DNA of 64,000 nt, taken from contig NZ_JUGU01000001.1 of NCBI RefSeq assembly GCF_000799465.1, positions 3,778,991-3,842,990 of the forward strand. Direction: 5' to 3'. The number at the start of each line of letters is the position of its first letter. The stretch's first letter is position 1. The translations under genes and the position numbers were made by a program. Positions 3 to 63,597 of this stretch are shown here, piece by piece. The notes beneath the pieces are model-generated. The model was not told where the DNA came from and did not search any database. It saw nothing but the letters and a program-made list of their open reading frames with translations. This stretch comes from Psychroserpens sp. Hel_I_66. GTDB taxonomy: Bacteria > Bacteroidota > Bacteroidia > Flavobacteriales > Flavobacteriaceae.

Positions 3-464
3 CAAAATATTCAAGCAGAAATTATATTGGATATCTATGGACCAGTATACGATCAAGAGTATTGGGAGAAATGCAAAAACGCTGTTAATAAACTTCCCAA
101 GCATGTGACAGTAAACCACAAAGGTTTCATTGATAGTGAGTTGGTGCTCGAGGTTATAAAAGGGTATGATTTTTTCATTTTACTTTCCGAAGGAGAAAAT
201 TTTGGACATTCTATTTTAGAAGCATTATCTGTTGGTTGTCCTGTGATAATATCAAACAATACACCTTGGAAAGACTTGAAATTAAAAAGTATTGGATGGA
301 ATGTAGATATTAACAGCAATAAGGAAATAGAAAACGTTTTTGATGAGATTTTCAATATGAATGAAGATAGCTATAAAGAAATGGTTAAACAATCCTTTAT
401 ATTTGCCAAGAATTTTTCAGAAGACAAAGAGCTTCTCAATCACAACAAAAACTTATTTTTATAA
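3..464 (+). CDS. Glycosyltransferase (GT4/GT1 type), C-terminal part, cut by window edge
   Basis: This is the C-terminal nucleotide-sugar-binding half of a GT-B fold glycosyltransferase. The frame is open to the left edge (it reads [14 protein letters not shown]), so the true start lies outside the window and the TTG at 27 is internal. The visible landmark is the E-x7-E motif inside [19 protein letters not shown], typical of retaining family 4 enzymes, followed by a short C-terminal helix region. Fourteen bases separate it from the downstream UDP-glucuronate decarboxylase, and it lies in the same direction as the other polysaccharide genes, so it probably adds one sugar to the repeat unit. 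Donor and acceptor cannot be read from the sequence. Confidence 0.85.
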
Positions 465-478
465 AATTATATAGAAGT

Positions 479-1420
479 ATGAAAAGAATTTTAGTAACAG
501 GAGGAGCGGGTTTTGTAGGTTCTCATTTATGTGAACGTTTATTAAACGAAGGCAATGAGGTTATTTGTTTAGATAATTACTTTACAGGTAGCAAGAAAAA
601 TATAGAACATTTAATGGATAACAACTATTTTGAATTGGTGCGACATGACGTTATCAATCCTTATATGGTTGAGGTAGATGAAATCTATAATTTAGCGTGT
701 CCTGCATCACCAGTGCATTATCAATATAATCCTATTAAAACGATTAAGACTTCTGTAATGGGAGCAATTAACATGTTGGGTTTGGCTAAGCGCGTCAAAG
801 CAAAAATCTTGCAAGCCTCTACTAGTGAGGTTTATGGCGATCCTGCGATACACCCACAACCAGAATCGTATTGGGGAAATGTAAACCCTATTGGGTTACG
901 TTCGTGTTATGACGAAGGTAAACGTTGTGCAGAGACTTTGTTTATGGATTATCATATTCAGAATAAAGTAAAAATAAAAATCATTAGAATTTTTAATACC
1001 TACGGTCCAAATATGAACCCTAATGATGGTAGAGTGGTCTCTAATTTTATTGTTCAGGCTTTAAAAGGAGAGGACATCACCATATTTGGGGATGGCATGC
1101 AGACGCGCAGTTTTCAGTATGTTGATGATTTAATTGAAGGTACAGTTAGAATGATGAACAGTAGAGATGGTTTTGTTGGACCTGTAAATATTGGAAATCC
1201 GCATGAATTTACTATGCTGGAATTAGCCAATAAAGTGATTGAACTTACAAATTCCAATTCAAAATTGGTATATCTGCCATTACCTCAAGATGATCCATTG
1301 CAGCGTCAGCCTATTATTGATTTAGCAAAAAAGGAACTTAATAATTGGTCTCCAAAAGTAGAACTAGAACAAGGTTTGACTAAAACCATCGCTTATTTTG
1401 ACACCTTATTAAAAGACTAA
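479..1420 (+). CDS. UDP-glucuronate decarboxylase (UDP-xylose synthase), NAD-dependent
   Basis: An extended short-chain dehydrogenase/epimerase of 313 residues, the usual length of bacterial UXS. The N-terminus has the Rossmann GxxGxxG (GGAGFVG, residues 8-14), then [23 protein letters not shown] and the catalytic YxxxK (YDEGK, near residue 144); these blocks are close to the UXS family consensus. The family oxidises and decarboxylates UDP-glucuronate to UDP-xylose in the cytoplasm. The gene sits inside the polysaccharide cluster, directly followed by the acetyltransferase gene, which suggests that pentose (xylose or a derivative) is part of the surface polymer. The substrate is inferred from family identity; UDP-galacturonate-type activity is less likely. 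Confidence 0.92.
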
Positions 1421-1969
1421 TTGAAAGTAGATTTATCATCATATAATAACAGTTGGTACCAACCAGGATCTCGTGTAAAACGTTTGTTATGGTATTTTGT
1501 AAATGAATTATTTTTCAAGAGTGGTTTTTTTCCGATATCTGGATTAAAAGTATTTTGGTTAAGATTGTTTGGTGCAAAAATAGGAGCAGGAGTGACCATA
1601 AAACCTAATGTTAACATTAAATACCCTTGGAAATTATCCATTGACGACCACTGTTGGATTGGTGAATCTGTTTGGATAGATAATCTAGATAACGTCACGA
1701 TAGAATCTAACGTGTGCTTATCCCAGGGCGTATTTTTGCTCTGCGGAAATCATAATTATAAATCCCAATCCTTCGATTTGATAGTAAAACCCATCTTTTT
1801 AAAACAAGGTGCGTGGATTGGTGCAAAAAGTATCATTGGACCCGGAGTAACCGTTCATGACCATGCAGTATTATCAATTGGGTCAACCGCAAGTACAAAT
1901 TTAGAAGCTTATGGAATCTATAGAGGAAATCCTGCACAAAAAATTAAAGAACGTGTGATTGAAAATTAA
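1421..1969 (+). CDS. WcaF-like hexapeptide-repeat acetyltransferase
   Basis: A left-handed beta-helix acyltransferase of 182 residues. The N-terminal NNSWYQPGSRVKRLLWYFV and the later GNHNYKSQSFDL and WIGAKSIIGPGVTVHDHAV are typical of colanic-acid WcaF-like O-acetyltransferases, which use acetyl-CoA to acetylate sugars of extracellular polysaccharides. The start is a TTG immediately after the stop of the upstream gene; there is no ATG nearby and the conserved N-terminal motif needs this start, so translational coupling is likely. The next gene starts 3 bases downstream. Acceptor sugar unknown. Confidence 0.85.
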   Translation: MKVDLSSYNNSWYQPGSRVKRLLWYFVNELFFKSGFFPISGLKVFWLRLFGAKIGAGVTIKPNVNIKYPWKLSIDDHCWIGESVWIDNLDNVTIESNVCLSQGVFLLCGNHNYKSQSFDLIVKPIFLKQGAWIGAKSIIGPGVTVHDHAVLSIGSTASTNLEAYGIYRGNPAQKIKERVIEN

Positions 1970-1972
1970 GAA

Positions 1973-2728: not shown

Positions 2729-2839
2729 AATTCAACTATTTTAATCAGTTTTGAATACTAAATTATTCAATCATATCAATAGATATTAAGCATTGAACTG
2801 CCAATCCATTAAATAGGATTGTTACGTTTTTTACCCGAT

Positions 2840-2874: not shown

Positions 2875-2922
2875 CGATATAAAAAAGAAACCCAAACGTA
2901 TTTTTTATATTAATTTGTTGAA

Positions 2923-7231: not shown

Positions 7232-7233
7232 TA

Positions 7234-7926: not shown

Positions 7927-8042
7927 TGTAAAAAAATAAGTTTGATATAATTGAATTTGATTTGAGATATTTAATTGGAGGTAAATTTCCGAAGAATATA
8001 AAATCAATACTTTATTACATTAACAGCTGATATTTAAAAAAT

Positions 8043-11573: not shown

Positions 11574-12644
11574 TTAATCACAGCTTATTGATTGTAAATT
11601 TATTATTGCAATATAGAATTCATCGTCTTCGGTATCTTCCTCAATTCCAAAGTCATTTATTCTTACATAGATACTTTGGTTTTCTTCGGAATTTAAATAT
11701 ACCTCACTAGAAACTATTGGATTTATTTCTAATTGTGCATCATCTTCGGTCTCATAAAATAGAATTGGTAGTTCGTCATCAAGTTCAAGAGTATCAAAAA
11801 TACATTCTGAATAATCATCAAATATAAACTCTGAAACGCCTTCCCCTTGCTCAAGTTCACATTCTTCAAAACTAAAATTACCACAATCTGTAAAATTGAG
11901 ATCACATCTTCGGTTTAAAATAAGTTCTCGATCTTGATTGGTCAACTGTAACGTGTTTTCATCAAGATATGTAACCTTCCAGTCAAAATTGAAAAACGCT
12001 CCAATTTCAGTATCATCAATAATACTTATATTGATATGTAATTCATTTTCAATAAATAATGGAGACCATGAGCCAAACAAAAGTTCATCCTCTAGATTTA
12101 AAGAAGTAAAACCATAATTCTGATAAAAATAACCTCCTAAATAAGGATTTTCATCATTGTAACTATATCCAATCTTTAGCGGACAATTTTGTATAAATGT
12201 GTTACACTCCATTAATATTTCTTCGTTAAGGCAATTGTCTATAGCTACTTTTAGTTCTTCAGTAGTATTGATTATGATTTCCTCACCAGATTCTAAAGTT
12301 CCAGTAATTGGAAAACTAATACTAGTAGAATAATCTATTTCCAAATTTCCAAGAATAGAACTAAACTGTTCATCATCTAATATGAAATTAGTGGAAACGT
12401 ACACATCACTATCATCAAAAATAAAAAGTGTCAAGGGATAAATAAAATCTATACATGCAATACTCTCGTCTGGTCGAGCTTCATCATTTGTGATGCCCTT
12501 AACGTTATCATATAAATCAGAATCTGAGCGTATCACTTCAACACTGTCAATATCTATGGTTGCAGAGAGATTATCATCTTGGTCATAGGAGCAAGATGAC
12601 AAGAAAATAAATAATGCTAGAATCGATAACTTTAATAGTTTCAT
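11574..12644 (-). CDS. Acidic secreted lipoprotein, function unknown
   Basis: I recognise no family. The 356-residue protein starts with a lipoprotein signal (LSILALFIFLSSCSYDQDD, lipidated Cys at 19). The mature part is very acidic and beta-rich, with six or more Cys residues, among them the paired patterns NTFIQNCPLKIGY, CDLNFTDCGNF and ECELEQGEGVSE. Similar acidic lipoproteins are common in marine flavobacteria and are thought to be surface or periplasmic. It sits alone between the ECF sigma gene and the proA terminator. No enzymatic motif is visible. Confidence 0.8.
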   Translation of the reverse strand: MKLLKLSILALFIFLSSCSYDQDDNLSATIDIDSVEVIRSDSDLYDNVKGITNDEARPDESIACIDFIYPLTLFIFDDSDVYVSTNFILDDEQFSSILGNLEIDYSTSISFPITGTLESGEEIIINTTEELKVAIDNCLNEEILMECNTFIQNCPLKIGYSYNDENPYLGGYFYQNYGFTSLNLEDELLFGSWSPLFIENELHINISIIDDTEIGAFFNFDWKVTYLDENTLQLTNQDRELILNRRCDLNFTDCGNFSFEECELEQGEGVSEFIFDDYSECIFDTLELDDELPILFYETEDDAQLEINPIVSSEVYLNSEENQSIYVRINDFGIEEDTEDDEFYIAIINLQSISCD

Positions 12645-12754: not shown

Positions 12755-13954
12755 TTAAACCCTCACATGGCCATCTCCAAACACATAATATTTGTTGGTA
12801 ACCAACTGTTTTAATCCCAGTGGACCTCTATGATGCAGCTTATCTGTGCTTATCGCTAATTCTGCACCAACACCCATTTGTCCACCATCGGTAAATCTCG
12901 TCGAGGCGTTGTGGTAGACTGCAGCACTATCTACACGTTCCATAAATTTTTTAGCTAGTTCTTTATCTTCAGTAATTATAGAAGCAGAATGTCCTCCAGA
13001 ATACGTATTGACCATTTCAATAGCCTCATCTGCACCATCAACTTGTGCAATCAATAACTTCATAGCTAAAAATTCCTCATACCAAATAGCCTCATTGTCA
13101 ATGATTTTTTCTTCGGAAAGCGTCTCGCTCACCTTTTCATCTACAACGATTTCAACTTTAAGTTTAGATAAAATGGAGTGTAGCTCTCTAAGTTTGATAG
13201 CAAGATTAGGTAGATTCTTATCAATCAAAACCTTATCCAATGCATTGCATCCTGAGATTTTATCGGTTTTTGCATTAATGATGACTTTTACTGCCTTTAG
13301 CCAATCTGCATTTTCAGCAACATATAAAAAGTTATTACCGCGTCCACTTATGAGTACAGCACAATTAGCATTGTCCTTAACAAATTTGATCAACCGCTCT
13401 CCACCTCTTGGTACAATAAGATCTAACTTCTCAGTAGGATTTTTCAAAAAAGCTTGGGTTTCATCTCTATTAAAATGTAAGAGTTTAATCCAATCTTTTG
13501 AAAGACCATTGGTTTCTAAAGCTTCATGCCAGCATTTTTCAAGAATAATGTTACTATTTTTAGCTTCTTTACCACCTTTCAATAGTATTTTGTTATTTGC
13601 CTTAAATGCTAGAACCGCAGCTTCAATAGTCACATCTGGACGCGACTCATAGATAATCATAATGGTTCCAAAAGGAGCAGTTTTATTAGTAATTTGTAAT
13701 CCGCTATCCAGAGTAAGGTCAGAAATCTCTTGTCCTACAGGATCATTTTGGGATTTTACTTCTTTAATAGCTCTAATCATGTCATCAATTTTAGACTCAT
13801 TGACAACCAATCTATCATAAAGCGCTTTATCATCTTTGTCAAAAGCAGATAAATCTTTTTGATTTTCTATTAATATGTGCTTACGCTCTCTATCAATAAT
13901 GTCAATCATAGATTGGAGTACGTTGTTTTTTATTTTTGAACTTAAAAGTTCCAT
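12755..13954 (-). CDS. proA: Glutamate-5-semialdehyde dehydrogenase (gamma-glutamyl phosphate reductase)
   Basis: An NADPH-dependent aldehyde-dehydrogenase-fold enzyme of 399 residues that reduces gamma-glutamyl phosphate to glutamate semialdehyde, step two of proline synthesis. Family blocks seen: FGTIMIIYESRPDVTIEAA, ALAFKANNKILLKGGKEA, DLIVPRGGERLI, KTDKISGCNALDKVL (catalytic Cys in the CNALD motif), and near the end NASTRFTDGGQMGVGAELAIS. Full length. It is the last gene of proC-proB-proA, 15 bases after proB. Confidence 0.96.
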   Translation of the reverse strand: MELLSSKIKNNVLQSMIDIIDRERKHILIENQKDLSAFDKDDKALYDRLVVNESKIDDMIRAIKEVKSQNDPVGQEISDLTLDSGLQITNKTAPFGTIMIIYESRPDVTIEAAVLAFKANNKILLKGGKEAKNSNIILEKCWHEALETNGLSKDWIKLLHFNRDETQAFLKNPTEKLDLIVPRGGERLIKFVKDNANCAVLISGRGNNFLYVAENADWLKAVKVIINAKTDKISGCNALDKVLIDKNLPNLAIKLRELHSILSKLKVEIVVDEKVSETLSEEKIIDNEAIWYEEFLAMKLLIAQVDGADEAIEMVNTYSGGHSASIITEDKELAKKFMERVDSAAVYHNASTRFTDGGQMGVGAELAISTDKLHHRGPLGLKQLVTNKYYVFGDGHVRV

Positions 13955-13969: not shown

Positions 13970-14746
13970 TTAATTAATAAATTTTGTTCCTACAGGCTTG
14001 TTATTGAGAATGTCAATAATCACATTTTGGCGTTTACCGTTAGCGATGTATGTAGGAATGTTTTTTCTCGCAGAGCCTTTGGCAATCTTTAACTTTGAAG
14101 CCATTCCGCCACGACCTTCTCCTTCTTTTTTGTTAGAGGCTTTAACGTATTGCTCTACATTTTCACCAACTTTAACTTCGTTTAGTTTTTTAGAACCTTC
14201 ATCGTCTGGGTGCCCTGTGTAGAGTCCATCTGTATCAGATAGAATAATAAGGCGATCTGCATCTATCAATTCTGCAACTAAACTTGCCAACTCATCATTA
14301 TCTGAAAACATTGACATGGTCAAAGAGACCGCATCATCTTCATTGGCAATGGGAATGATACCTTCGGAAAGTAATCCTTCATAACAATTAATCATGTTAT
14401 CTCGGTGCAATCCTATGTCAAAATCTCTTTTCGTGGCTAGTACTTGCGCGCAGCGCATTCCGTAGTCATGAAAAATACTATAATAATGACGCATCATACG
14501 CGGTTGCCCAACCGAAGAATAGACCTGGCGTCTAATAGAAGGATCTTTAATACTGGTTTCGCCCAATATCTCCTTTCCTGCCATTGCAGATCCAGAGGAC
14601 ACAAGGATGACCATGATTTCTTCTTCATATAATACAGAAATTTGTCTTACAAGCTCTCTTAAAACCGGACCAAATATTCTGTTATCTCTGTTTGTTAATA
14701 CGTTGGTTCCAACTTTTACGACCACACGTTTTATATCACTATCCAT
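13970..14746 (-). CDS. proB: Glutamate 5-kinase
   Basis: An amino-acid kinase of 258 residues that phosphorylates glutamate with ATP as the first step of proline synthesis. Blocks: VVVKVGTNVLTN at the start, VILVSSGSAMAGKE, IPIANEDDAVS, FSDNDELASLVAELIDADRLIILSDTDGLYTG (split over several motifs) and GRGGMASKLKIAK. It lacks the C-terminal PUA domain of the E. coli enzyme and is therefore about 110 residues shorter; short forms are normal in this phylum. It starts 2 bases after proC, so the genes are co-transcribed. Feedback inhibition by proline is usual for the family. Confidence 0.95.
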   Translation of the reverse strand: MDSDIKRVVVKVGTNVLTNRDNRIFGPVLRELVRQISVLYEEEIMVILVSSGSAMAGKEILGETSIKDPSIRRQVYSSVGQPRMMRHYYSIFHDYGMRCAQVLATKRDFDIGLHRDNMINCYEGLLSEGIIPIANEDDAVSLTMSMFSDNDELASLVAELIDADRLIILSDTDGLYTGHPDDEGSKKLNEVKVGENVEQYVKASNKKEGEGRGGMASKLKIAKGSARKNIPTYIANGKRQNVIIDILNNKPVGTKFIN

Positions 14747-19103: not shown

Positions 19104-19228
19104 TTAATAATCTAGATATTTGAGTTACTATTATGTTTTCTAGATGTACGTTTACTACTCGAGTTATAGATTTTTTTTAGTATTCTTTTATGACTAATTG
19201 TTGAATTTTAACTTTTCCGAAGAAAAAA

Positions 19229-26778: not shown

Positions 26779-26880
26779 CGTAAAATTTGAATAATTGTCC
26801 TGGTTTTTAAGACTTTCATAAGATAGAAATTAACGCAAACGTTATCGTTTCCGAAGAAAAATAAGATAAAAAAAGTGCTT

Positions 26881-30281: not shown

Positions 30282-30367
30282 TTTTGAAGAATCAAATTTC
30301 CGAAGAAAGCATCTGAAAAATTCTTGAACTACATAAAATATCCAATACCTCAACGCTGAGCAGGCTT

Positions 30368-34820: not shown

Positions 34821-35002
34821 AATTCCAATTATTTTTAAAATTATTTTTTCTTCGGAAATATGAATATCCATAGCTATTTCGGGAATTTTGTATTGGTTTT
34901 TAAGGGTTTATAAATAAAATTGCCTGTAACATTTTATGTAACTGTACGTCTTATTTGTATAATCAACAACCGCTGAATGTTTCAGCATTAAACCAATCAA
35001 TC

Positions 35003-44616: not shown

Positions 44617-45633
44617 ATGAACGACGCAATAATTCTTACTCTCGCCTATCCCGAAACTATTGTTTCTCATGCTGAAGAATGGTACTCTAAATTTTTAAGG
44701 TTTTTTTTCATCGGAAGTAAAAAACATGTGAGAGCAGGTCACGCAGCTTTGGTTCTAATTGATAAGTCAACAGGGGTTTTAGAATACCATGACTTCGGAA
44801 GATATATCACGCCTTCTCCCAACGGAAGGGTTCGCGGGCGTGAGACAGACTTTGAACTGGATTTTCCAATTTCCGCAGAAATAAAGAAAGATAAGATTGA
44901 AAACCTAGACGAGATCCTAAAATTTTTGGCAACACATCCCAAATTAACTCATGGTGATGGGCTACTTTATGCATCGGTTTGCAATGCCATTGACTATAAA
45001 AAAGCGAGAACACACATAACAGCAATGCAAAAAAAAAGTTTTGTTAGATATGCTGCTTTTGTAAAAGATGCCTGTAATTGTGCTCGTTTTGTAACCGATG
45101 CCTTGATTGCCAGTGTTACAGACAAAACGATTAAAACCAAACTCATAAGATCCAAAAATTTCACCCCAAGTACAATTGGTAATGTGGTAATCGCAGATAC
45201 TGAAAAAAATGTTTTTGTGGTTTCTGAAAATGGAGAGATACAGGGTTTTAAATCTAGCGTAAGTCGGGAAAACAGGCGTTTGTTTTTAGATATTCTTAAA
45301 GGTTATAGCCCAAGTTTGATAGGGACGCTAAAGCCAAAGCATAACAATGAAAAAGAAGATCACGCACAATGGTTAAGTGGTATTGCTGCTGGTGCATGGT
45401 TTGAAATTTACGATACGGGAAGTGAAACCGAATACAGATACAGACGTATTTCTCCCTATGGAAATGTAGATTGCGACGCTGTTTATGCCATAGATAAAAA
45501 GGGATTTAATATAAAATCAAATTATCAATTTGTGCATTATTCAAACTGTAGATTCTTTCATATCGAGCAAAACAATACAAAGTATAGATTTCATTACTTG
45601 AAAGATTTCTTTTTGGATTTAAGTAAAAAGTAA
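44617..45633 (+). CDS. DUF6695-like protein, possible permuted papain-like fold
   Basis: A 338-residue cytoplasmic protein; I recall the opening MNDAIILTLAYPETIV and EYHDFGRYITP from the flavobacterial family DUF6695. The N-terminal domain contains VRAGHAALVLID (conserved His) and, about 100 residues later, DACNCARFVTDALIAS (conserved Cys), an order and spacing like the His/Cys pair of permuted NlpC/P60 (YiiX-like) proteins. The C-terminal third (AQWLSGIAAGAWFEIYDTGSETEYRYRRIS) is beta-rich. Catalytic function is only a suggestion. The stop codon lies in the first units of a heptanucleotide tandem repeat. Confidence 0.75.
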   Translation: MNDAIILTLAYPETIVSHAEEWYSKFLRFFFIGSKKHVRAGHAALVLIDKSTGVLEYHDFGRYITPSPNGRVRGRETDFELDFPISAEIKKDKIENLDEILKFLATHPKLTHGDGLLYASVCNAIDYKKARTHITAMQKKSFVRYAAFVKDACNCARFVTDALIASVTDKTIKTKLIRSKNFTPSTIGNVVIADTEKNVFVVSENGEIQGFKSSVSRENRRLFLDILKGYSPSLIGTLKPKHNNEKEDHAQWLSGIAAGAWFEIYDTGSETEYRYRRISPYGNVDCDAVYAIDKKGFNIKSNYQFVHYSNCRFFHIEQNNTKYRFHYLKDFFLDLSKK

Positions 45634-46416: not shown

Positions 46417-47787
46417 TTAATTGATTAAATTCTCAGATGAAATCACAAATTTCTCGATGGTTTTGAAAAAGTTGGTGATGTCTTCTTTCTTTAAGATGCT
46501 ATTTATGGTTACCATTCTCACAAATTCTTGATTTTTAAAGTTTCCGAAGCCAACCATTAATTGGGATTGTTCATAAAGCGCTGTACATAATGTATTCGCA
46601 GGTATATCTTTATAGTTAAAACATACCGATATGGAATCATCAAAACTGTAAAGTGTGTAGTCTGGATGATTGGTGATGTAGTTGCGAGCAAATTTCGCTA
46701 GATTAAATTGATGGTCGACAATTTTTTCTAAACCTTTATTCCCAACAGATTTCCATAGTGTCCAAAGCTTTAAGGCATCGTTTCTGCGACCGCATTGTAT
46801 TGAGGTTTTACCAAGGTTGAACTCATCATCGTTGGTTTGGTAAAGATATTCCGCTTCATTAGAAAATGATTTTTTGAGATGTTCTTTGTTTTGAGTGACT
46901 ATAACAGAACAACTCAGCGGAGTGCCCAGCATTTTATGGGCATTGACGCTAAAAGAGTCCGTAAGTTCTATACCATTAACTAAATGTTTGTAGGCTTCGC
47001 TAAAAATAACTGCTCCACAATAGGCACCGTCCAAATGAAGCCATAAACCGTATTTTTTGCAAACTTTACTTATACTTTTTACATCATCAAAGGCACCTAA
47101 TACAGTGGTTCCTGCGGTGGCATTTACGAAAAACGGTTGGTAGCCTTGGTCTTTGTCTATCTGGATTTGCTGATCTAGATGACTTGAAAGCATTTCTCCC
47201 TTATCATTTGTTTTTATAGCTCTTACTTGATCGCGTCCAACGCCTATAAAAGAAGCATTTTTTGCGATTGAGTAATGCGAAGCTTCCGAAGTGTAAAGTG
47301 TCATTTTATTTGTAATCCCTTCAGTTCTTGCTTTGGGGTTGTATTTGTCTCTAGCCATTAAAACAGCCATATAATTACTCATAGAACCACCTGGGGCAAA
47401 AGTGCCATCGGCAGTTTTAGGATAACCTATCATATCACAAATTTTGTGAAGAATTGTTTTTTCAATGCCAACCTGAGGTCCTGCAACTTTATAGGTATAC
47501 ATGCTGTTATTAAGCATTACAGCCAACAGATCACCAAGTGTAGCTCTGTCTATTCGACCACCAAATAACTGATTGAAAAAGGATGTTGAAGCGGTTTTTG
47601 GAGTGCTTTTAATGATATCCTTTAGTGTCTTTATAAAATCCTCATCTATAGTTGGCTCGTCATCTAAGCTTAGATTTAGAGTCTCATAGAGTTTAGAAGT
47701 GTCAATTGGAGTGGCTACAGGATTGTTTTTTTCTTCGGAAATTAGAAATTCTGCAAGCTCTGTAAATAATTTAAGGTTGTTATGCAT
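46417..47787 (-). CDS. Group II PLP-dependent decarboxylase, candidate cysteine sulfinate decarboxylase
   Basis: A 456-residue glutamate-decarboxylase-like enzyme. Blocks: FAPGGSMSNYMAVLMARDKYNP, YTSEASHYSIAKNASFIGVG, FVNATAGTTVLGAFDDVKSI, WLHLDGAYCGAVIFSE and DSFSVNAHKMLGTPLSCSVI, whose Lys in the NAHK motif binds PLP. The group acts on acidic or aromatic amino acids (glutamate, aspartate, cysteine sulfinate, diaminobutyrate). The divergent neighbour, 86 bases away, is a cysteine dioxygenase, whose product is cysteine sulfinate; decarboxylation to hypotaurine is therefore the best guess. Aspartate 1-decarboxylase is the main alternative. Confidence 0.85.
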   Translation of the reverse strand: MHNNLKLFTELAEFLISEEKNNPVATPIDTSKLYETLNLSLDDEPTIDEDFIKTLKDIIKSTPKTASTSFFNQLFGGRIDRATLGDLLAVMLNNSMYTYKVAGPQVGIEKTILHKICDMIGYPKTADGTFAPGGSMSNYMAVLMARDKYNPKARTEGITNKMTLYTSEASHYSIAKNASFIGVGRDQVRAIKTNDKGEMLSSHLDQQIQIDKDQGYQPFFVNATAGTTVLGAFDDVKSISKVCKKYGLWLHLDGAYCGAVIFSEAYKHLVNGIELTDSFSVNAHKMLGTPLSCSVIVTQNKEHLKKSFSNEAEYLYQTNDDEFNLGKTSIQCGRRNDALKLWTLWKSVGNKGLEKIVDHQFNLAKFARNYITNHPDYTLYSFDDSISVCFNYKDIPANTLCTALYEQSQLMVGFGNFKNQEFVRMVTINSILKKEDITNFFKTIEKFVISSENLIN

Positions 47788-52437: not shown

Positions 52438-53238
52438 ATGGAGAAGAAAACAGATAAAAATATATATACTATTATTTTCGCAGTTGCGATGGTCGTGGTT
52501 GTTGGGTCATTATTGGCATTTACAGCTTCATCTTTAAAACCAGCAATTACAGAGAATGAGAGAATAGAAAAACAACAAAATATCCTTTACGCACTGGGTG
52601 AAAATGAAAATGAAGGAGATGGAGATATCGCTTTTGTGTCTACAGATAAGGTTTCCGAAGCATTTAAAACAAAAGTGTCAGAGCAATTGGTTTTAGAATC
52701 TAAAGATGGGAACATCGTAAAAACGATGACCAGAGAAGAATATATGTCTGCCAATAATAATCAAGAGCCTTATTTGATTGACGTAAAAAAACAGCAGGCT
52801 AATGCAAAAGCGGGTGAATCTCGTTTATTGCCACTTTTTGTTGGTAAATCAGAGGAAGGAGAAACCTTATATGTAGCGCCTATAAGAGGTAAAGGTCTTT
52901 GGGATGCAATTTGGGGTTATGTTGCTGTTGATAAAGATATGATCGTAAGAGGAACATTTTTTGACCACGCTGGAGAAACTCCTGGTTTAGGTGCAAACAT
53001 CAAGCAACGTTACTTTATGGATGATTTTTACGGAGAACATTTATTGACAGAAGCAGGAGTATTTAAAGGAATTGACGTTGCTAAAGGTAATGCAGATCCT
53101 AAAAATAATGATAAAACAGATTATGAGGTAGATGCTTTAGCAGGAGCGACCATTACAGGTGATGGTGTGTCTGCAATGATCAAAGCAGATTTGAAATTAT
53201 ATTTACCTTATTTCCAAAATTTAAAAACAGCTAACTAA
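52438..53238 (+). CDS. nqrC: Na+-translocating NADH-quinone reductase subunit C
   Basis: A 266-residue subunit with one N-terminal helix (IYTIIFAVAMVVVVGSLLAFTA) and a periplasmic FMN-binding domain. The covalent FMN threonine is in VDALAGATITGDGVSAMI (S/AGAT motif), and GLWDAIWGYVAVDKD and FFDHAGETPGLGANIK are typical. ApbE would attach the flavin; no apbE gene is present in this window. Two bases separate it from nqrB. Confidence 0.97.
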   Translation: MEKKTDKNIYTIIFAVAMVVVVGSLLAFTASSLKPAITENERIEKQQNILYALGENENEGDGDIAFVSTDKVSEAFKTKVSEQLVLESKDGNIVKTMTREEYMSANNNQEPYLIDVKKQQANAKAGESRLLPLFVGKSEEGETLYVAPIRGKGLWDAIWGYVAVDKDMIVRGTFFDHAGETPGLGANIKQRYFMDDFYGEHLLTEAGVFKGIDVAKGNADPKNNDKTDYEVDALAGATITGDGVSAMIKADLKLYLPYFQNLKTAN

Positions 53239-54692: not shown

Positions 54693-56006
54693 ATGATAGT
54701 TTTAGAAGCAGGAACAATAGGAACAGTAGTAGCAACTGTAGTAGCGTTTTTAGTCATCTCGCTTATACTTATAAGTCTATTACTAGTTGTAAAACAAAAA
54801 TTATCTCCATCTGGACCCGTAACAATTAAGATTAACGGTGAAAAAGAAATTGAGGTTGCCTCTGGAGGTACACTATTATCTACTTTAGGTGGTGAAAAAA
54901 TATTCTTACCATCTGCTTGTGGTGGAGGTGGAACATGTATTCAATGTGAATGTCACGTACTTTCTGGTGGTGGTGAAGCATTGCCAACTGAAACCCCTCA
55001 CTTTAGTAGAAAAGAATTAGCACATGGCGCACGATTATCCTGCCAGGTAAAAGTGAAGCAGGATATGGAAATTACAATTCCTGAGGAGGTCTTCGGAATT
55101 AAAAAATGGGAAGCAACCGTTGTGCGTAACTACAACGTAGCCTCGTTTATCAAAGAATTTGTTGTGGAGATTCCTGAAGATATGGGCTATAAAGCTGGAG
55201 GTTATATTCAAATTGAAATTCCGCCATGTGAGGTGAAGTTTGAGGATATGGATATCACTGCGCACCCAGAAGAGCACGAAACTCCAAATAAGTTTCAAGC
55301 AGAGTGGGATAAATTTGGTCTTTGGCCATTGGTGATGAAAAATGCTGAAACTGTAGAAAGAGCCTACTCTATGGCCTCTTATCCTGCAGAAGGGCGTGAA
55401 ATCATGCTTAACGTACGTATTGCAACTCCGCCTTGGGATCGCGCAAAAAATCAATGGATGAACGTAAACCCTGGAATTGCATCTTCATACATTTTCAATC
55501 AGAAAAAAGGTGATAAAGTAGTTATTTCTGGACCTTACGGTGAATTCTTTATCAATGAATCTGAAAGTGAGATGCTTTACGTTGGAGGAGGAGCTGGTAT
55601 GGCGCCAATGCGTTCTCATCTATACGAATTATTTAGAACCATCAAAACCGGTCGTAAAGTAACGTATTGGTATGGTGGACGTTCAAAAAGAGAATTATTC
55701 TACATTGAGCACTTTAGAAAATTAGAAAAAGATTTCCCTAACTTTAAATTCTACATGGCACTTTCTGAGCCTGCAGAAGAAGACAACTGGAAAGTCAAAA
55801 AAGATATTAATGATGAAGCAGGTGATGGTTTTGTAGGTTTTATTCACAATTGTGTAATAGACAACTACCTTAAGCACCATGAAGCACCAGAAGATATTGA
55901 GCTTTATTTCTGTGGACCACCATTAATGAACCAAGCGGTTCAAAAAATGGGTGAGGATTATGGTATCCCAGATGAGCACATTAGATTTGATGACTTTGGT
56001 GGCTAA
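54693..56006 (+). CDS. nqrF: Na+-translocating NADH-quinone reductase subunit F
   Basis: A 437-residue electron-input subunit. One N-terminal helix (TVVATVVAFLVISLILISLL), then a [2Fe-2S] ferredoxin domain with Cys in SACGGGGTCIQCECHVLSG and the fourth Cys in GARLSCQVKV, a FAD domain (ERAYSMASYPAEG, GIASSYIFN) and a NADH-binding domain (LYVGGGAGMAPMRSHL, LYFCGPPLMNQ). It oxidises NADH and passes electrons into the complex. I chose the ATG at 54693, one base after the nqrE stop, over a TTG at 54684 that overlaps nqrE. Confidence 0.97.
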   Translation: MIVLEAGTIGTVVATVVAFLVISLILISLLLVVKQKLSPSGPVTIKINGEKEIEVASGGTLLSTLGGEKIFLPSACGGGGTCIQCECHVLSGGGEALPTETPHFSRKELAHGARLSCQVKVKQDMEITIPEEVFGIKKWEATVVRNYNVASFIKEFVVEIPEDMGYKAGGYIQIEIPPCEVKFEDMDITAHPEEHETPNKFQAEWDKFGLWPLVMKNAETVERAYSMASYPAEGREIMLNVRIATPPWDRAKNQWMNVNPGIASSYIFNQKKGDKVVISGPYGEFFINESESEMLYVGGGAGMAPMRSHLYELFRTIKTGRKVTYWYGGRSKRELFYIEHFRKLEKDFPNFKFYMALSEPAEEDNWKVKKDINDEAGDGFVGFIHNCVIDNYLKHHEAPEDIELYFCGPPLMNQAVQKMGEDYGIPDEHIRFDDFGG

Positions 56007-56582: not shown

Positions 56583-56666
56583 AGCAAATTGTTTTCAAGT
56601 TCTTTTTCCGAAGTAAAAGATACAAAAAATGGGACTTAAAATCAAGCCATGATAAATAACTGCACC

Positions 56667-57114: not shown

Positions 57115-57981
57115 ATGAAGAAATTATTACTTACCATTTTAATCTTAACATCACTTGTAGTTTTGGCATTTCAGTTTAAGCCTGTAAAACGAGTGGTCAA
57201 TACCGTTAGAGCAAGTATTGAAACACCAAGCCTTATTGATAAAGATAGTTTGACCATTACTTCTAGAGTAAATATTCCTGACGGTTACAAACGTGTTTCC
57301 TACGGAAATGGGAGTTTTGAGGAATATCTTCGGAATTATAAACTGAAACCCTTTGGAAGCAAAATTATAAATTACGACGATTCTGAATATTTCTGGCAAG
57401 GTGGTCATATTGGTATTTTAGAAATTCCTGTGCCAAAAAACGGATTGCAACAATGCGCAGATGCACTTATTAGAATTAGAAGTGAATACCTTTGGAAACA
57501 TAATAGAAAAGATGAAATAGGCTTCAACTTTACCTCAGGTCATTATTGTTCATGGAAACAATATGCTGATGGTTACCGACCAAAAATAAGTGGAAATAAA
57601 GTATCGTTTCATAAAACTGCGAGTGCCAATACTTCCGAAGAAAACTTTTACAACTACCTCAATTTAATTTATATGTATTCTGGCACATTATCTCTTTATA
57701 ATGAGCTTAAATCTATTGATGCAAAGGATTTAAAAATTGGTGATATGTTGATTAAAGGTGGCTCTCCAGGGCATATTGTAATGATTTGTGATGAGATTAT
57801 AAATGATAATGGTGATAAACGCTTTTTGTTATTTCAAGGCAATACACCTGCCCAAAGTGTACATTTAGTAAAGAATCTTGAGGATGCGACGTTTTCACCA
57901 TGGTATCAATTGGAGAATGACGCTGTTGTTCCTGTTTCTAATTATACATTTGGGAGTGCAAAGTTTGTGCGATTTAAATAA
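57115..57981 (+). CDS. DUF4846 protein, secreted or membrane-anchored
   Basis: A 288-residue protein with an N-terminal signal/anchor (LLLTILILTSLVVLAFQF). It matches what I remember of DUF4846: INIPDGYKRVSYGNGSFEEYLRNY-type opening, VLEIPVPKNGLQQCADALIRIRSEYLW (in parts), GFNFTSGHYCSWKQYADGYRPK and GDMLIKGGSPGHIVMICD, where the last resembles NlpC/P60-like PGH motifs. Function is unknown. The region of its last 40 codons is duplicated, in decayed form, about 650 bases downstream. Confidence 0.8.
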   Translation: MKKLLLTILILTSLVVLAFQFKPVKRVVNTVRASIETPSLIDKDSLTITSRVNIPDGYKRVSYGNGSFEEYLRNYKLKPFGSKIINYDDSEYFWQGGHIGILEIPVPKNGLQQCADALIRIRSEYLWKHNRKDEIGFNFTSGHYCSWKQYADGYRPKISGNKVSFHKTASANTSEENFYNYLNLIYMYSGTLSLYNELKSIDAKDLKIGDMLIKGGSPGHIVMICDEIINDNGDKRFLLFQGNTPAQSVHLVKNLEDATFSPWYQLENDAVVPVSNYTFGSAKFVRFK

Positions 57982-58690: not shown

Positions 58691-59404
58691 TTATTCTGTT
58701 GCGATATTGACGAGCACTTCGGCTTCTCCTGTTACACCAATAACATTGTTGTAAAGTGTATCATAATTTTCGTTAACGGTATTGACGCTTACACCTGTAA
58801 GCAATATTCGAAAACTGTTTTCTTCTGGAACAAATGTTACATCACCACTTTGGGACTCATTGGTCCAAGTATACACGTTACCAACGTCGTATGGGAAGTC
58901 ATCAAATCTGTAATCGATAACTTCAATTTGATAAGAACTAGCATCTTCATTTTTAGGTACAACAAATCCATTGCCATAAATAAAACGTGTTCCTTCGCCT
59001 TCTGGGTAGCTATCTCTGATCCAGAATGTTGGCTCTAGGCTTAGAATTATGAGTTCTGGTTCTGTTACAAAAGAGAAATCGTCTTCTGAAATTCCGCCTC
59101 GTCCATCATCTGCTACGATAGTACCATCATAGAGTGTTTCTGGATCTAGACCATTAAAATTGTAAGTCAATGCGGTTCCTCCAATTGAGACCAATTGATC
59201 ATTAAGATAAATGGAATAGGTGACCGGGTCGTCATCGATGTCTATGGCTTCTGTCCATTCTATAGATGCGCCATCTATTCTGGTTTCAAGGATGGTTACT
59301 GAAAATGGTCCTGGAGCAATGTTATCTGGATCGATAGTATCATCTTCCGAAGAACAATTTATTAGAGAAAAAGTAAATAGGATTAAATAGAGGTAATTTT
59401 TCAT
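58691..59404 (-). CDS. Fibronectin type III-like lipoprotein
   Basis: A 237-residue lipoprotein (signal LYLILFTFSLINCSSEDDT). A single FN3-like domain fills residues 30-115: GPFSVTILETRIDGASIEWTEAIDIDDDPVTYSIYLND (in parts), TALTYNFNGLDPETLYDGTI and the FVTEPE end. The C-terminal half is beta-rich (FIYGNGFVVPKNEDASSYQIEVIDY) without known motif. Probably anchored in the outer membrane and possibly surface-exposed. Its terminator overlaps the region of the DUF4846 remnant. Confidence 0.8.
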   Translation of the reverse strand: MKNYLYLILFTFSLINCSSEDDTIDPDNIAPGPFSVTILETRIDGASIEWTEAIDIDDDPVTYSIYLNDQLVSIGGTALTYNFNGLDPETLYDGTIVADDGRGGISEDDFSFVTEPELIILSLEPTFWIRDSYPEGEGTRFIYGNGFVVPKNEDASSYQIEVIDYRFDDFPYDVGNVYTWTNESQSGDVTFVPEENSFRILLTGVSVNTVNENYDTLYNNVIGVTGEAEVLVNIATE

Positions 59405-59627: not shown

Positions 59628-61796
59628 TTATGAAAGTCTTTTCTTTTTTATGATTATGGTAATTGAAATACATATAATGATACCGAGTATCATCCAAATG
59701 ATCCAATTATTATTGGTATTTAAATCTATTGGAGCTGTGTCGCCAATAAAAACCAGTCCTGCCCAATATTGCGGAGCATTTGTTCTACCATTTGCTTTGG
59801 CTAGATAATCTAATTTTGCTTTTTGCAAAGCTTTGTCTTTTGGGAGTCCCTTTTTTATATATCCATAAAAGTTTTCAATGATTTGGGCACTGGATTGCTC
59901 GTCAATTTTCCAAAGGCTTGTTAAAATGCTTTCACTTCCTGCGTAGTTAAATGCATGTGCGAGAGAAATCATCCCTTCTCCAGCTTGATAGGTTGGTTTT
60001 CCTGTTTCGCAAGCTGTTAGGATTGCCAGATTGGATGAAAGGTTTTGGTTATAGATTTCGTAGCTGTAAAGCGAATTATGTTCCGAAGAAATGGTATCGT
60101 TTACATTTTTTGCAAAAATAAGTCTTGAGAGTTCTGGTGATATGTTATTGGATTCTGCGTGCGTACCAATATGAATTATTTTATGCTCTTTGGCATTTTG
60201 GGTAAAAATAGCTTTGGAGGCATTTTCGTTGATAAATGAGCTACCATTAAAAATACGAGATGACTCTTGTGCTAAGTTTTTACTGAATGGTTGTGGCAAC
60301 AGTGTTAAATACGTTCTATCTAGATTTATGGAATCTTTTATGGCAATCTCATAATCTGATTTCATTTTTGAGTTGAACTCTGGTGCAAAACCAATAAAAT
60401 TAGAATCGTATCCAATGGTTTTACTGCCTTTATCTACGAGAAACAAACTGTAATTGTATGAGATAACATATGTGTTTAAAAGGCTGTTTTCTGCTAATTC
60501 CTTATGTGATTTTACCAGCTGGTTGGTTAGCATCTCAAAATTTAAATTAAACAGAATTTGATCGGGAATGATGATAACCCGTTCTGTCTTTATATGTGAT
60601 TCTATAGGTTTCCAAAGCGAAAGGTATAAATTATGTAAAACTTCAAAATTAACTTGAGATATTACATTATTATCTTGAATGGAATTTATCTTTTGGGTTA
60701 AATGATCGTTATTTAATTTAAAGATTTTAATGTCTTGGTCATGAATGATAAACGCATAAAGTTGTTGATCTATAAATGTATACCTAACAAGCGTTTTGTC
60801 TACTAAGTTACTTGCTTTTAGCTGCTCATTGATAGATTTGGATATTGAAGCAAATTTTAAGTTATAATATTTGGGATAGTCATCTTTTAACACTTTTAAA
60901 AAGCCTTGCCATTCCTTATTTACTTCAAAAAAAGATTCTAGTGCGTCGTTTTTTGAAATAGATGAACTTAATGCTTCTTTAAGCCTATTTTCTTCCTTTA
61001 TGATATGCTCAGGAATATTGGCATAGTTTATTGAGCTTTGCGAGTTTAACCTATTTCTAATACGATTGTAAAGCATAGACTCATGCAAACCTAAAACTTG
61101 GCTTAAATATGCTTTAGATTTGGTCATCTCATATAGCTCGAGAGCCAATTGTTTGGCATACTCAAACAGTTCGCCATTATTTAAAAGTAAAATAGAAACA
61201 CTACTATCATCTGAAAGTACAGATTTTTGCTCTTCTAGAATAGAAATGGCACTTTGAAGTTCTTGCAATTTAGATTTTAAGAATATACTGTCTTTTTGTG
61301 TTTTTAATTGGTACTCAGCTTTGACTTTGGTTAGTATTGCAAAAGGTTTTTGTACCTCAATGGTTAATTTGCTTAAGCCTGTGTTTTTAGTAAAAATGGA
61401 GTCGTTAAGCAATTCTAAAGCTATTTTGCTTTTTATTAATGCAGCATCATAATGTTCAAGTTTGTATTCAATGCCTGCAAGGTTTAACACTTGATGGTAC
61501 TCTAATAGTGTTTTCTCGCCTTGGTTTTTTACAATGTATTGATAGCCTTCATTTGCCATTTCCGAGGCTTTTTCGGGATAGCCATTTTCAGCATAAAAAG
61601 TAGAAGCCGAATTTATAAAATCTAAATACAGTTCATCATAAGAGTCACCTAGAGCAGATTTGTAATAGTCTTCAGACTTTTGATAACAATTAAAGGCGCC
61701 TTTAATATTATTAGTATCTTCATATAATCTTGCTTTGTAATAATAAGCATCAGCTAACCAATTGAAATAATCACTTGGGTTTTCACTAAATTCCAA
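59628..61796 (-). CDS. TPR-CHAT protein, C-terminal main part (gene is frameshifted upstream)
   Basis: The longest open part (722 residues) of a TPR-CHAT gene. Residues 1-220 contain tetratricopeptide-like repeats (YYYKARLYEDTNNIKGAFNCYQKSEDYY); about 300-690 is a CHAT caspase-like peptidase domain. The catalytic pair is visible: His at about 546 in HIGTHAESNN and Cys at about 596 in LAILTACETGKPTYQAGEG, followed by GSESILTSLWKID. A C-terminal membrane helix (WIIWMILGIIICISITIII) with basic KKKRLS end anchors it. The true start lies upstream (at about 62866, with a signal peptide) but is separated by at least one frameshift near 61851. It could be an envelope-anchored, periplasm-facing protease; substrate unknown. 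Confidence 0.85.
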   Translation of the reverse strand: MEFSENPSDYFNWLADAYYYKARLYEDTNNIKGAFNCYQKSEDYYKSALGDSYDELYLDFINSASTFYAENGYPEKASEMANEGYQYIVKNQGEKTLLEYHQVLNLAGIEYKLEHYDAALIKSKIALELLNDSIFTKNTGLSKLTIEVQKPFAILTKVKAEYQLKTQKDSIFLKSKLQELQSAISILEEQKSVLSDDSSVSILLLNNGELFEYAKQLALELYEMTKSKAYLSQVLGLHESMLYNRIRNRLNSQSSINYANIPEHIIKEENRLKEALSSSISKNDALESFFEVNKEWQGFLKVLKDDYPKYYNLKFASISKSINEQLKASNLVDKTLVRYTFIDQQLYAFIIHDQDIKIFKLNNDHLTQKINSIQDNNVISQVNFEVLHNLYLSLWKPIESHIKTERVIIIPDQILFNLNFEMLTNQLVKSHKELAENSLLNTYVISYNYSLFLVDKGSKTIGYDSNFIGFAPEFNSKMKSDYEIAIKDSINLDRTYLTLLPQPFSKNLAQESSRIFNGSSFINENASKAIFTQNAKEHKIIHIGTHAESNNISPELSRLIFAKNVNDTISSEHNSLYSYEIYNQNLSSNLAILTACETGKPTYQAGEGMISLAHAFNYAGSESILTSLWKIDEQSSAQIIENFYGYIKKGLPKDKALQKAKLDYLAKANGRTNAPQYWAGLVFIGDTAPIDLNTNNNWIIWMILGIIICISITIIIKKKRLS

Positions 61797-62866
61797 AATA
61801 CCTTCATCTAAAAATTTTTCGGCTTCATCATATTCTTTTAAATCCAGGTTATTTGACCTAACAGTATTTTCCCTTTGGAAATCTCAGGGCTGTTTGCATT
61901 TAGATGTTTTCTTTTTTGATTATAAGAATAACTAATAAGTGCTTTGGCTTTTTCGAAATCTCCAATATCCTTGTAAATCCCAGCATAATTATCGATAGCC
62001 TGAAATAAAAATTCTTGCGCATAATCTTTTCTGGCTTCAGTAATATCAGACTTTAGAAACGTATCAAGATTAGAGACAGTTTTCTGCATTGCTATTATAG
62101 CAGCATTTAGATCGCCCTTTATGCTATTAATACCTGCAATATTATTATTGAGAATTGCAGGTCTTAGGTATTTGTTATCTGGCGTAGGCTCAAGTGTTTT
62201 GAGAATTTGCTCTGCTTTTTTATAATATACTAAAGCACTATCGATTTTTGAAGAATACCACATCATACCTCCCAGTGCATTATGGGTGATATATAAGCGC
62301 TCTTTTTTGGTGTCTGGAAATGTTTTATAGGCTTTTAATGCTTTTTTATGATAGTCTAACGCAGTTGTTAAATTACCCATTCTCATATTAAATGTGCCAA
62401 GATTACTGTAGATAATACCAAAAAGTTCACCATTTTTGTTGGGCATCTTATTAGTGTATTCTATAGCCTCCAAATTTATTCACTTGCAGTTTTAGAATCA
62501 CCCATAAATTCATAAAATGAGGCAACTTCAAGTTTTAATTGTCTAATGGCTTTTGGATTTGAAGTAAGGGAAACAATGCGTTTTTCAAAATCTAGAACCG
62601 CTTTTCTGCAGCTTGATTATTTTTGAGTTCAAAATTTATTTGCCTAAATAATACGTGTAATCAGTAACTTCATAAACAATTTTTCTCAATTAGATCTTCA
62701 ATATTTTTCTGCAAATGTTCTTGGGCTATATCAAATTTTTCTTCTGAAATGAGCCTGTCTAACTTTTTCAATTCTGAAATAGAATCCTGCTGTGCAAACC
62801 AACCTGAGCTAAACTCATATGAAAATAAGAGCATAGTATATCTAAGCAATTTTTTAATTGATTCAT
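61797..62866 (-). pseudogene. N-terminal TPR part of the CHAT gene, broken by several small indels
   Basis: The intended protein can be followed through all three frames: start MNQLKKLLRYTMLLFSYEF at 62866 (signal peptide), then AQQDSISELKKLDRLISEEK, INFELKNNQAAEK, AVLDFEKRIVSLTSNPKAI, SFYEFMGDSKTASE and NLEAIEYTNKMPNKNGELFG with further TPR helices (GNLTTALDYHKKALKAYK, KIDSALVYYKKAEQILK). Frame changes are near 61851, 62479 and 62600, and at least two more near 62655-62675; most look like single missing bases. The 211-residue segment 61838-62473 is open. Whether this is real decay or poor sequence cannot be decided here. Confidence 0.75.
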
Positions 62867-62879
62867 AATGAGTTATTTA

Positions 62880-63597
62880 TTAAGCAGTTAGTTGTTTAGT
62901 TTAGATAATAGGCTTTACTGTTATCTGTATTTGAAAGTTCTAGATTAGATTTTGCCTTTTCAATATTTCTTCTTTTAGATATGCCATACCTAAATAATAA
63001 TGAGCATCGTTTACTAAAGAAACTCAGCATTATCAACTGCTTTGTTTAAAAACGATTGCTTTATTTTCGTTTTTTTATAGCAAGATAAGCGATCCTAAAA
63101 GTAATCCGCGTATCATTATCTGGCTGATTTGCTTTTAAAGTCTCCCATTTGCCAATCGCAGTTTTATAATCGCCTTGCTTATAATTCACCATCGCATCAT
63201 AAATCAAGTTAGAGTTGCTACTCATCACGTTGGTAAACCAGGATCTGGCGTAAAATATTTCGCGTACAAACGCTCGTTTTGAGGCACACTATACACCAAA
63301 GTAGAGCAATGGCCAATAAAATTGCTGCTGCTGCTGCTGCATATTTTCCTAAATGTGGAAATGCTCCAATTCTCCTTTTTTCTTCGGAAATCCCTTCGGG
63401 CAAATCCTTATGAAATTCATCTAACTGTTCTTTTAAGGATTGGTTCTCGATACCAAAAATCAACTTTTGATATCCTCAACTTGAGTTCTAAACTCAGGAT
63501 CTTCATTAAGTCTTTTCGCTTTGTTTAGACATGGTATTATTATAGTAAGTTCAACCGTTTCTAGTAATTCTTGTGATATGTCGCTATTATCTTTCAA
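62880..63597 (-). pseudogene. TPR membrane protein of the sigma/CHAT cluster, broken by small indels
   Basis: Joined across frames the product reads KDNSDISQELLETVE, LNEDPEFRTQVEDIK, then SLKEQLDEFHKDLPEGISEEKRR, one membrane helix (AAAAAAILLAIALLW), PQNERLYAKYFTPDPGLPT, MSSNSNLIYDAMVNYKQGDY and TPR repeats ending in KAKSNLELSNTDNSKAYYL. This is the layout of the Bacteroidota anti-sigma-like/TPR protein found between an ECF sigma gene and a TPR-CHAT gene. Frame changes occur near 63466, 63288, 63230 and several times between 62880 and 63080, so no full-length product is possible as the sequence stands. Probable start is the TTG at 63597. Confidence 0.7.

Follow-up and report, generated by a model that had tools for sequence, protein, structure and literature searches.

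The stretch analysed here (the window) is 64,000 nucleotides of the Psychroserpens sp. Hel_I_66 genome, the final 64 kb of its single 3,842,990-base contig (a 3.84-Mb genome, G000 below), and a short DNA word, CTTCGGAA, is scattered through its genes and intergenic gaps in both orientations. Exact copies of the word or its reverse complement TTCCGAAG number 32, with 17 on the plus and 15 on the minus strand. An initial annotation of the window had counted 31; all of its starts were confirmed, and the copy that it overlooked lies at 19489 on the minus strand. Its estimate that base composition predicts one or two copies agrees with dinucleotide shuffles of the window (mean 1.37, maximum 4; 0 of 100 reach 32). 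The six copies that it placed between genes (7987, 19215, 26849, 30298, 34850 and 56606) are intergenic by gene calls, and 63382 is a seventh. The copies of CTTCGGAA, with strand and context, are as follows.

185..192, minus strand, antisense in the open reading frame 27-464
7987..7994, minus strand, intergenic; aligned copies in G014 and G008
11684..11691, plus strand, antisense in 11574-12644
13111..13118, plus strand, antisense in 12755-13954
14362..14369, plus strand, antisense in 13970-14746
19215..19222, minus strand, intergenic
19489..19496, minus strand, sense in 19286-21547 (this PNPase gene served as the query); aligned copy in G005, G009, G013, G015 and G017
20689..20696, plus strand, antisense in 19286-21547; relatives mostly have CTTCAGAA or a near form
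20950..20957, plus strand, antisense in 19286-21547; CTTCAGAA in almost all aligned relatives
24516..24523, plus strand, sense in 24192-24530
26311..26318, plus strand, antisense in 25676-26743
26849..26856, minus strand, intergenic
28291..28298, plus strand, antisense in 26881-29448
29815..29822, minus strand, antisense in 29568-30281
30062..30069, plus strand, sense in 29568-30281
30298..30305, minus strand, intergenic
32155..32162, plus strand, sense in 31962-33311
32344..32351, plus strand, sense in 31962-33311
34850..34857, plus strand, intergenic
35956..35963, minus strand, sense in 35771-36955
44793..44800, plus strand, sense in 44617-45633
46542..46549, minus strand, sense in 46417-47787
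47284..47291, minus strand, sense in 46417-47787
47733..47740, plus strand, antisense in 46417-47787
52653..52660, minus strand, antisense in 52438-53238
55091..55098, plus strand, sense in 54684-56006
56606..56613, minus strand, intergenic
57328..57335, plus strand, sense in 57115-57981
57633..57640, minus strand, antisense in 57115-57981
59345..59352, minus strand, sense in 58691-59404
60081..60088, minus strand, sense in 59628-61796
63382..63389, plus strand, intergenic by our gene calls

The abundance of the word is a property of the whole genome. G000 carries 2,174 copies of CTTCGGAA (1,085 and 1,089 on the two strands), a core density of 0.57 copies per kb, and the same word read backwards, used as a control, occurs 118 times. 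The 12-mer TTTCTTCGGAAA has 485 genome copies and its control 3. Finer analyses were performed on a sample of 40 stretches of 20 kb across the chromosome plus the window, which together make 864 kb (22% of the genome). In this sample CTTCGGAA is the top over-represented 8-mer, with 506 copies seen against 23.4 expected from a third-order Markov model, so the word is not explained by background.

In favor of a by-product of codon, amino-acid or mutational bias, SSE (58 copies) and ISEE (28 copies) lead the peptide contexts, and many relatives show a mild enrichment of the related words TTCWGAA. The genic copies are nevertheless found in sense (219) and antisense (184) orientation, in all three phases and in 88 distinct peptide contexts, with no confinement to one context such as SEE. 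Coding copies number 363 against 23.9 ± 5.3 in 20 synonymous-codon shuffles, which preserve proteins and codon usage, and intergenic copies number 143 against 2.4 under a second-order Markov model (103 or 143 depending on the gene caller, the second of which permits no gene overlap); between genes the 12-mer TTTCTTCGGAAA was seen 57 times where 0.1 is expected. Because the word is in 15-fold excess over synonymous shuffles within genes and in ~60-fold excess between genes, the constraint acts on DNA rather than on protein, as the initial annotation had proposed. Codon bias as the cause is ruled out by the synonymous shuffle, the intergenic excess and the conservation of sites in place (see below), and the bias explanation keeps next to no probability.

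The constrained element is longer than eight nucleotides. The full motif is tttCTNCGGAAa, with a T-rich left frame and an A/C-rich right frame common to sense, antisense and intergenic copies, and it spans ~40 bp when the A/T tracts are included. Intergenic copies are T-rich from about -8 to 0 and prefer A at +9, A at +14/15, C at +18 and +20, and A from +22 to +24; sense and antisense genic copies show the same flank tendencies more weakly. Under a flank model trained solely on 102 intergenic copies, coding copies scored -0.62 ± 0.22 in sense (n = 219) and 0.46 ± 0.24 in antisense (n = 184), compared with -3.28 ± 0.32 (n = 126) and -2.38 ± 0.25 (n = 173) for sense and antisense one-off words, a lead of ~2.7-2.8 bits. 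Within the core, the enriched variants in the 864 kb are CTACGGAA (125 seen vs 13.4 by third-order Markov expectation), CTGCGGAA (128 vs 14.2) and CTCCGGAA (27 vs 6.0). The remaining single-base changes are mostly at or below expectation, apart from those at position 7 (C 16 vs 3.9, G 26 vs 10.8, T 35 vs 20.7), CTTCAGAA (64 vs 37.7) and CTTCCGAA (94 vs 23.4). For the last of these, 85 copies of CTTCCGAAG have the word's own reverse complement within them. Since few other single changes exceed expectation, the core is CTNCGGAA, with T preferred at the free position 3. The window holds the following variants, and one interval lacking the core word.

1741..1748, plus strand, variant CTGCGGAA
8813..8820, plus strand, variant CTACGGAA
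9501..9508, plus strand, variant CTACGGAA, intergenic
14458..14465, minus strand, variant CTACGGAA
29710..29717, plus strand, variant CTACGGAA
33814..33821, plus strand, variant CTGCGGAA
34394..34401, minus strand, variant CTGCGGAA
37116..37123, minus strand, variant CTACGGAA
38991..38998, minus strand, variant CTACGGAA
39078..39085, minus strand, variant CTACGGAA
43398..43405, minus strand, variant CTCCGGAA
44142..44149, minus strand, variant CTGCGGAA
44871..44878, minus strand, variant CTGCGGAA
48685..48692, minus strand, variant CTACGGAA
50731..50738, plus strand, variant CTCCGGAA
56296..56303, plus strand, variant CTCCGGAA
57300..57307, plus strand, variant CTACGGAA
193..7986, no strand, 7.8 kb free of the core word; genes include an epimerase, two glycosyltransferases and an AAA_31/GNVR protein; the single variant is the one at 1741

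The shape of the core invites an RNA explanation, in which the transcript would fold into a UNCG-tetraloop hairpin (UUUC-UUCG-GAAA) that serves as a terminator or processing signal. C(UNCG)G is the UNCG-tetraloop consensus and is also the required part of the word, with position 3 free; TTTC and GAAA are able to pair, and part of the sites are intergenic. An RNA signal should, however, be oriented with transcription, and as the main cause of the word the hairpin is contradicted by the nearly equal number of antisense genic copies. Among the sampled genes there is no preference for gene ends, no terminator-like placement was observed in the sampled 864 kb, and intergenic copies are similarly dense in divergent gaps (16 in 17.4 kb) and convergent gaps (17 in 14.2 kb). 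Position A8 does not tolerate change, yet its supposed partner T-1 is T in just 67% of cases; no other paired stem stands high in the ranking, and the flanks beyond the hairpin are conserved. A terminator or hairpin role is unlikely because of the sense/antisense balance, the lack of gene-end preference and the similar density in divergent and convergent gaps, and as an account of the word as a whole it is very improbable.

The evolutionary history of the word was traced among related genomes. A PNPase tree places Winogradskyella costae next to G003 as its sister (99/98); the supported clade around them (96/95) includes G000 and 20 of the 21 same-genus genomes in the tree. Because G021 falls outside this clade and an uncultured "Flaviramulus" contig falls inside it, the single-gene tree leaves the genus limits unsettled; the genus of G000, judged from its sequence, is most likely Winogradskyella. 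Over 23 same-genus genomes, TTCTTCGGAA ranges from 53 to 970 copies, G000 having 970. Genomes with high counts are dispersed through the tree, and sister pairs are unlike: G016 has 440 copies and its sister G020 has 63 (~7-fold), and G003 has 294 where W. costae has 18 (~16-fold), below the W. costae control of 35. When word-rich is taken to mean 100 or more copies of TTCTTCGGAA and a count no less than four times that of the reversed-word control (counted by eye from the table, the control being poorly matched for GC-rich genomes), 37 of 397 Flavobacteriaceae genomes in 23 of 237 genera are word-rich, with strands roughly alike. The word-rich ones among 35 named genomes searched are Salinimicrobium marinum (273), Altibacter lentus (258), an Altibacter metagenome-assembled genome (224) and Tenacibaculum aquimarinum, which has 105 copies, 67 and 38 on the two strands, against a control of 13. 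In a survey of 218 genomes across the phylum, none of the 196 outside Flavobacteriaceae reaches 100 copies, the highest being G492 with 73 (control 9), G037 with 68 (control 29) and G501 with 66 (control 5). Several genomes of group f29 stand at least 5-fold above their low controls, and weak enrichment in that group is possible.

A one-base neighbour, TTCTTCAGAA, exceeds TTCTTCGGAA in genus g53 (164 and 150 copies vs 38 and 31) and accompanies the word in g8, g51, g73 and g119, a pattern that looks like genus dialects. In G000 the TTCTTCAGAA form equals the codon expectation, and the dialect signal may partly be background, the A form being the commoner coding word.

Individual sites have been retained as well. 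In aligned orthologous DNA, 41 of the 65 copies in relatives are intact in G000, against 12% of control 8-mers of like composition, while 41 of 174 aligned G000 copies are intact in a relative (control 11.7%), counts that partly repeat one site seen in several relatives. The copies in relatives are mostly shared sites, because they are conserved five times better than control words, and the G000 copies are far more numerous. Old sites thus appear to have been kept, and many others to have been gained on the G000 line or lost elsewhere. Among the top words listed, no replacement of like strength was found in the word-poor relatives covered (G002 over 160 kb, G011 over 100 kb, and 13 further low-count species over a pooled 400 kb). 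Nor was another such dispersed word found in 63 loci of at least 14 kb (of 80 named), where the top z was 13 for 8-mers and 18 for 10-mers; the word itself reaches z of 29-34 in three single 20-kb stretches of G000.

Two other word families were observed in the relatives. TTTCTGAA and TTTCAGAA occur at 3-4 times the synonymous shuffle in loci L239-L248, L052 (Altibacter) and L219-L223 (G322), and at just 1.3 and 1.6 times in G000; this is perhaps a related word of its own. In L129-L130 (G008) the palindrome GGCTAGCC (20 copies, both strands counted) and other words stand out by their strong enrichment over 41 kb, probably as part of a local repeat array.

Along the chromosome, the copies are distributed without polarity. 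When origin and terminus are assigned from GC skew, the sampled copies divide into 252 leading-strand and 254 lagging-strand ones, and no polarity appears under four origin/terminus choices, this one included. No ori/ter pattern was found over the 41 sampled stretches. The strand and origin/terminus check called for by the initial annotation thus revealed neither bias nor pattern. Words of the KOPS, matS and SlmA type are polar, or else keep to the ori or ter regions or avoid them, a behavior that this word does not display. The spacing is exponential, i.e., random (coefficient of variation 1.01), with a mean of ~1.5 kb.

Copy numbers in the 20-kb stretches are over-dispersed, with a mean of 11.9 and a variance of 19.8. 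The four sparsest of the 40 stretches, annotated after selection for low density and hence an illustration rather than a blind test, contain two reverse-transcriptase genes, SIR2 and a type I restriction-modification system (L038, 2 copies), metal-efflux genes (L046, 2 copies), metal efflux plus an integrase (L026, 3 copies) and glycosyltransferases (L019, 5 copies). A longer stretch of ~91 kb (104,961-195,720 of contig C1) has 2 forward copies against 25.6 expected (P = 2.6×10−9, based on the first 100 forward positions and chosen after the list was viewed) and contains five of the fourteen PF00589 recombinases (tyrosine recombinases/integrases) of the genome. It looks like an integrated element or integrase-rich island. 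Scarcity of the word in recently acquired DNA is thereby supported, in a test that was not blind. The initial annotation had suggested that the copy-free polysaccharide locus of the window would fit recently acquired DNA. The gap from 185 to 7987 is real for the core word, with variant CTGCGGAA inside it; since the mean spacing is ~1.5 kb and a longer gap of 8.8 kb (35956-44793) occurs elsewhere in the window, the gap is by itself weak evidence, and the general point is better supported by the stretch with five integrases.

Two side observations concern mobile DNA. L038 (C1 1800001-1820000) is a defence island in which the two reverse-transcriptase genes are adjacent. Integrases at C1 1724963 and 1798159 have identical scores, are both 467-aa frames and lie 73 kb apart; they are perhaps a duplicated element end.

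The relative orientation of neighboring copies, noticed incidentally on the sampled stretches, is not random in G000. Neighbors are opposite in 280 cases and in the same orientation in 185 (p = 1.2×10−5), and four control words show no such excess of opposite pairs, one of them being biased the other way. The imbalance originates from same-orientation pairs at 60-1000 bp, which are at 0.36-0.72 of expectation (90 seen vs 122.5 ± 7.9 in orientation shuffles within stretches; 0 of 5000 as low); the deficit vanishes beyond 2 kb and opposite pairs are not lacking. Taken at face value, the shortage of same-orientation pairs would point to an element with one-directional action for which a single copy per orientation in each kilobase suffices, although with one genome behind it this is a guess. 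In five sampled sets and one Salinimicrobium locus from outside the genus, neighbors within 2 kb are opposite in 137 and same in 99 cases (p = 0.016, each set alone being non-significant), and other Winogradskyella give 32 and 23 (p = 0.28). The CT[AG]CGGAA variants sampled in G000, unlike the T form, have no opposite excess (104/109) and form same-orientation clusters within 150 bp (12 vs 2).

Other features of the window are Rfam matches to an S15-Flavobacteria ribosomal protein leader (22002-22067, minus strand) and a Flavo-1 RNA (25487-25582, plus strand), a protein carrying PF17116, the plug domain of the type 9 secretion system (48410-49663, minus strand), and a CHAT-domain protein whose N-terminal part is TPR-like on reading (59628-61796, minus strand).

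The initial annotation had likened the word to uptake signals, to Chi-like words and to chromosome-organisation words. A Chi-like recombination signal, recognised by an enzyme of the AddAB/RecBCD type, would account for the strong over-representation of an 8-base core and its poverty in the integrase-rich stretch, and the same-orientation deficit of G000 would fit a directional element. Chi-type words are read on single-stranded DNA, and the long A/T-tract frame is unlike such a word; moreover, copy number differs many-fold between sister species and leading-strand polarity, a working criterion for Chi (PMC8022716), is absent. This explanation is accordingly improbable. The chief rival is a chromosome-organising or nucleoid-protein site, at which an intracellular protein would bind the long motif and selection for spread would keep the copies. 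A ~40-bp motif with A/T tracts is what a DNA-bending protein might prefer, the copies are spread over the sampled chromosome and conserved in place, and the integrase-rich stretch is poor in the word. Against it, the observed spacing is random rather than regular, no ori/ter pattern was seen, and the sisters G020 and W. costae as well as the islands are word-poor. It is unlikely, though less so than Chi.

Among the three kinds, an uptake sequence fits best. We propose that the word is probably an uptake or self-recognition sequence of flavobacterial natural transformation, working like the uptake signal sequence (USS) of Haemophilus and the DNA uptake sequence (DUS) of Neisseria. Most sequence features fit an uptake sequence, and several oppose Chi, KOPS, terminators and codon bias; the uptake preference itself is what we infer from them. 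A surface or periplasmic receptor would prefer double-stranded DNA carrying the word, and the favored fragments would recombine via ComEC, DprA and RecA. Such biased uptake would enrich the word in recombining (own) DNA, with newly acquired islands lagging behind. Since G000 has no match to PF00437, the ATPase of type IV pili and type II secretion systems (T4P/T2SS), at E 1e-20, the receptor would not be a ComP-type pilin; it may be part of a Riemerella-type machine (DUF5689 surface protein, barrel and HhH protein). If action is directional, one copy per orientation per kilobase might suffice.

The machinery was considered in the light of published systems. Uptake words have been described in Pasteurellaceae and Neisseriaceae (PMC7811141). 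Transformation of R. anatipestifer requires ComEC, DprA, ComF, RecA and four proteins unlike known systems, with homologues across the family (PMC8459023), and R. columbina is reported to favor uptake of its own DNA (PMC7965970). In the literature searched, with thin coverage of subscription journals, no uptake word has been reported in Bacteroidota, and nothing on the word itself was found by title or abstract opening among the matches listed. All 23 Winogradskyella have matches to the ComEC and DprA families; being present in all, these cannot explain the swings in copy number. PF00437 is matched in 74 of 397 Flavobacteriaceae genomes. A type IV pilus link is unsupported, the family being absent from G000 and not tracking the word. 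A pattern filter on the sampled genes (22% of the genome) gave no match to a Riemerella-type HhH gene and 11 lipoprotein/large-protein pairs; two of these, the two scanned with Pfam, were rejected as a Riemerella-type machine (a GDSL lipase and a GSDH protein, each with a TonB receptor), and the Riemerella DUF5689, barrel and HhH genes were not found in that sample. Genes beside comEC gave no lead by inspection, without a domain scan.

Several observations weigh against an uptake role or against parts of it. ComEC and DprA occur in word-rich and word-poor genomes alike, and PF00437 is matched in 8 of 37 word-rich genomes and 66 of 360 others. No uptake receptor was found in the sampled 22% of G000, and competence has been shown for no Winogradskyella in the literature searched. 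One-off words are mostly unenriched in G000, though a drive should leave decay products, and a chromosomal binding protein that some species have lost and others gained would account for much of what is observed. The ~91-kb stretch was selected post hoc, its depletion concerns forward copies, and at least one reverse copy lies within it, at its left end (L009 8414). As for directional action, uptake by Haemophilus is reported to be unaffected by orientation (PMC1939737), and in G000 the deficit does not extend to pairs closer than 60 bp (11 same vs 9.3 expected). Word-rich genera other than Winogradskyella (L219-L234, L239-L258, L052, L065 and L074) have 0.86-1.20 times the expected number of same-orientation pairs at 60-2000 bp; there it is the opposite pairs that are in excess, at 60-250 bp (1.93; 37 vs 19.2) and 1-2 kb (1.34; 126 vs 93.8). 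In other Winogradskyella same pairs are at 1.78 and 1.37 below 500 bp and 0.47 at 500-1000 bp, all on small numbers.

A bolder version of the uptake reading is that Bacteroidota hold a third, independent origin of DNA self-recognition, with a pilus-free Riemerella-type outer-membrane machine, genus dialects and, at least in G000, a directional action that leaves a spacing footprint. We regard this as tentative and rather doubtful, the more so because the same-orientation deficit is not seen outside the genus. Even so, the word is a candidate uptake sequence in another phylum, in a genome with no type IV pilus ATPase match. It would offer a testable fragment for uptake and a route to the receptor, word-rich and word-poor sister species are available for comparison, and a possible reason emerges why a flavobacterium could prefer its own DNA.

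Compared with known systems, the word shares with Chi (GCTGGTGG in Escherichia coli, and others) that it is short, over-represented and poor in acquired DNA, and differs in its lack of leading-strand polarity and its longer motif with A/T tracts. Riemerella, which its describers class in Flavobacteriaceae, provides a parallel in the self-DNA preference of R. columbina (PMC7965970) and the ComEC, DprA, ComF and RecA machine of R. anatipestifer (PMC8459023); unlike the present word, those in the Riemerella k-mer table, which gives raw counts, are all A/T-rich, and its authors are undecided on any being an uptake word (PMC7965970). The H. influenzae USS (core AAGTGCGGT) resembles the word in its density of about one per kb (0.57 here), its occurrence on both strands and its core with AT-rich flanks (PMC7811141), as well as in the lack of orientation bias round the chromosome and the non-coding excess reported for it (PMC1939737). 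It is unlike the word in its unrelated core, its phylum and the pilus machinery, G000 having no T4P/T2SS ATPase match. Close inverted USS pairs are used as terminators in Haemophilus. Strain 86-028NP has 109 pairs within 14 bp (PMC7811141), whereas the 506 sampled copies of G000 form 8 opposite pairs at distances up to 60 bp and show no gene-end bias (compare PMC2346458); the same-orientation deficit at 60-1000 bp is a feature seen here in G000. The Neisseriaceae DUS is similar in its very many copies, its action at the level of DNA, its differing strength among species and its one-base dialect shifts (TTCTTCAGAA in g53), and different in its sequence and in the pilus ATPase that is unmatched in G000. 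CTNCGGAA shows no relation to the USS and DUS words given in PMC2346458. Because of the other core, the lack of a pilus ATPase match and the lack of an inverted-pair habit, the word belongs to neither family; with uptake sequences of this kind it has in common an excess of copies, both orientations without strand bias, a core in an AT-rich frame as in Haemophilus, and scarcity in acquired DNA.

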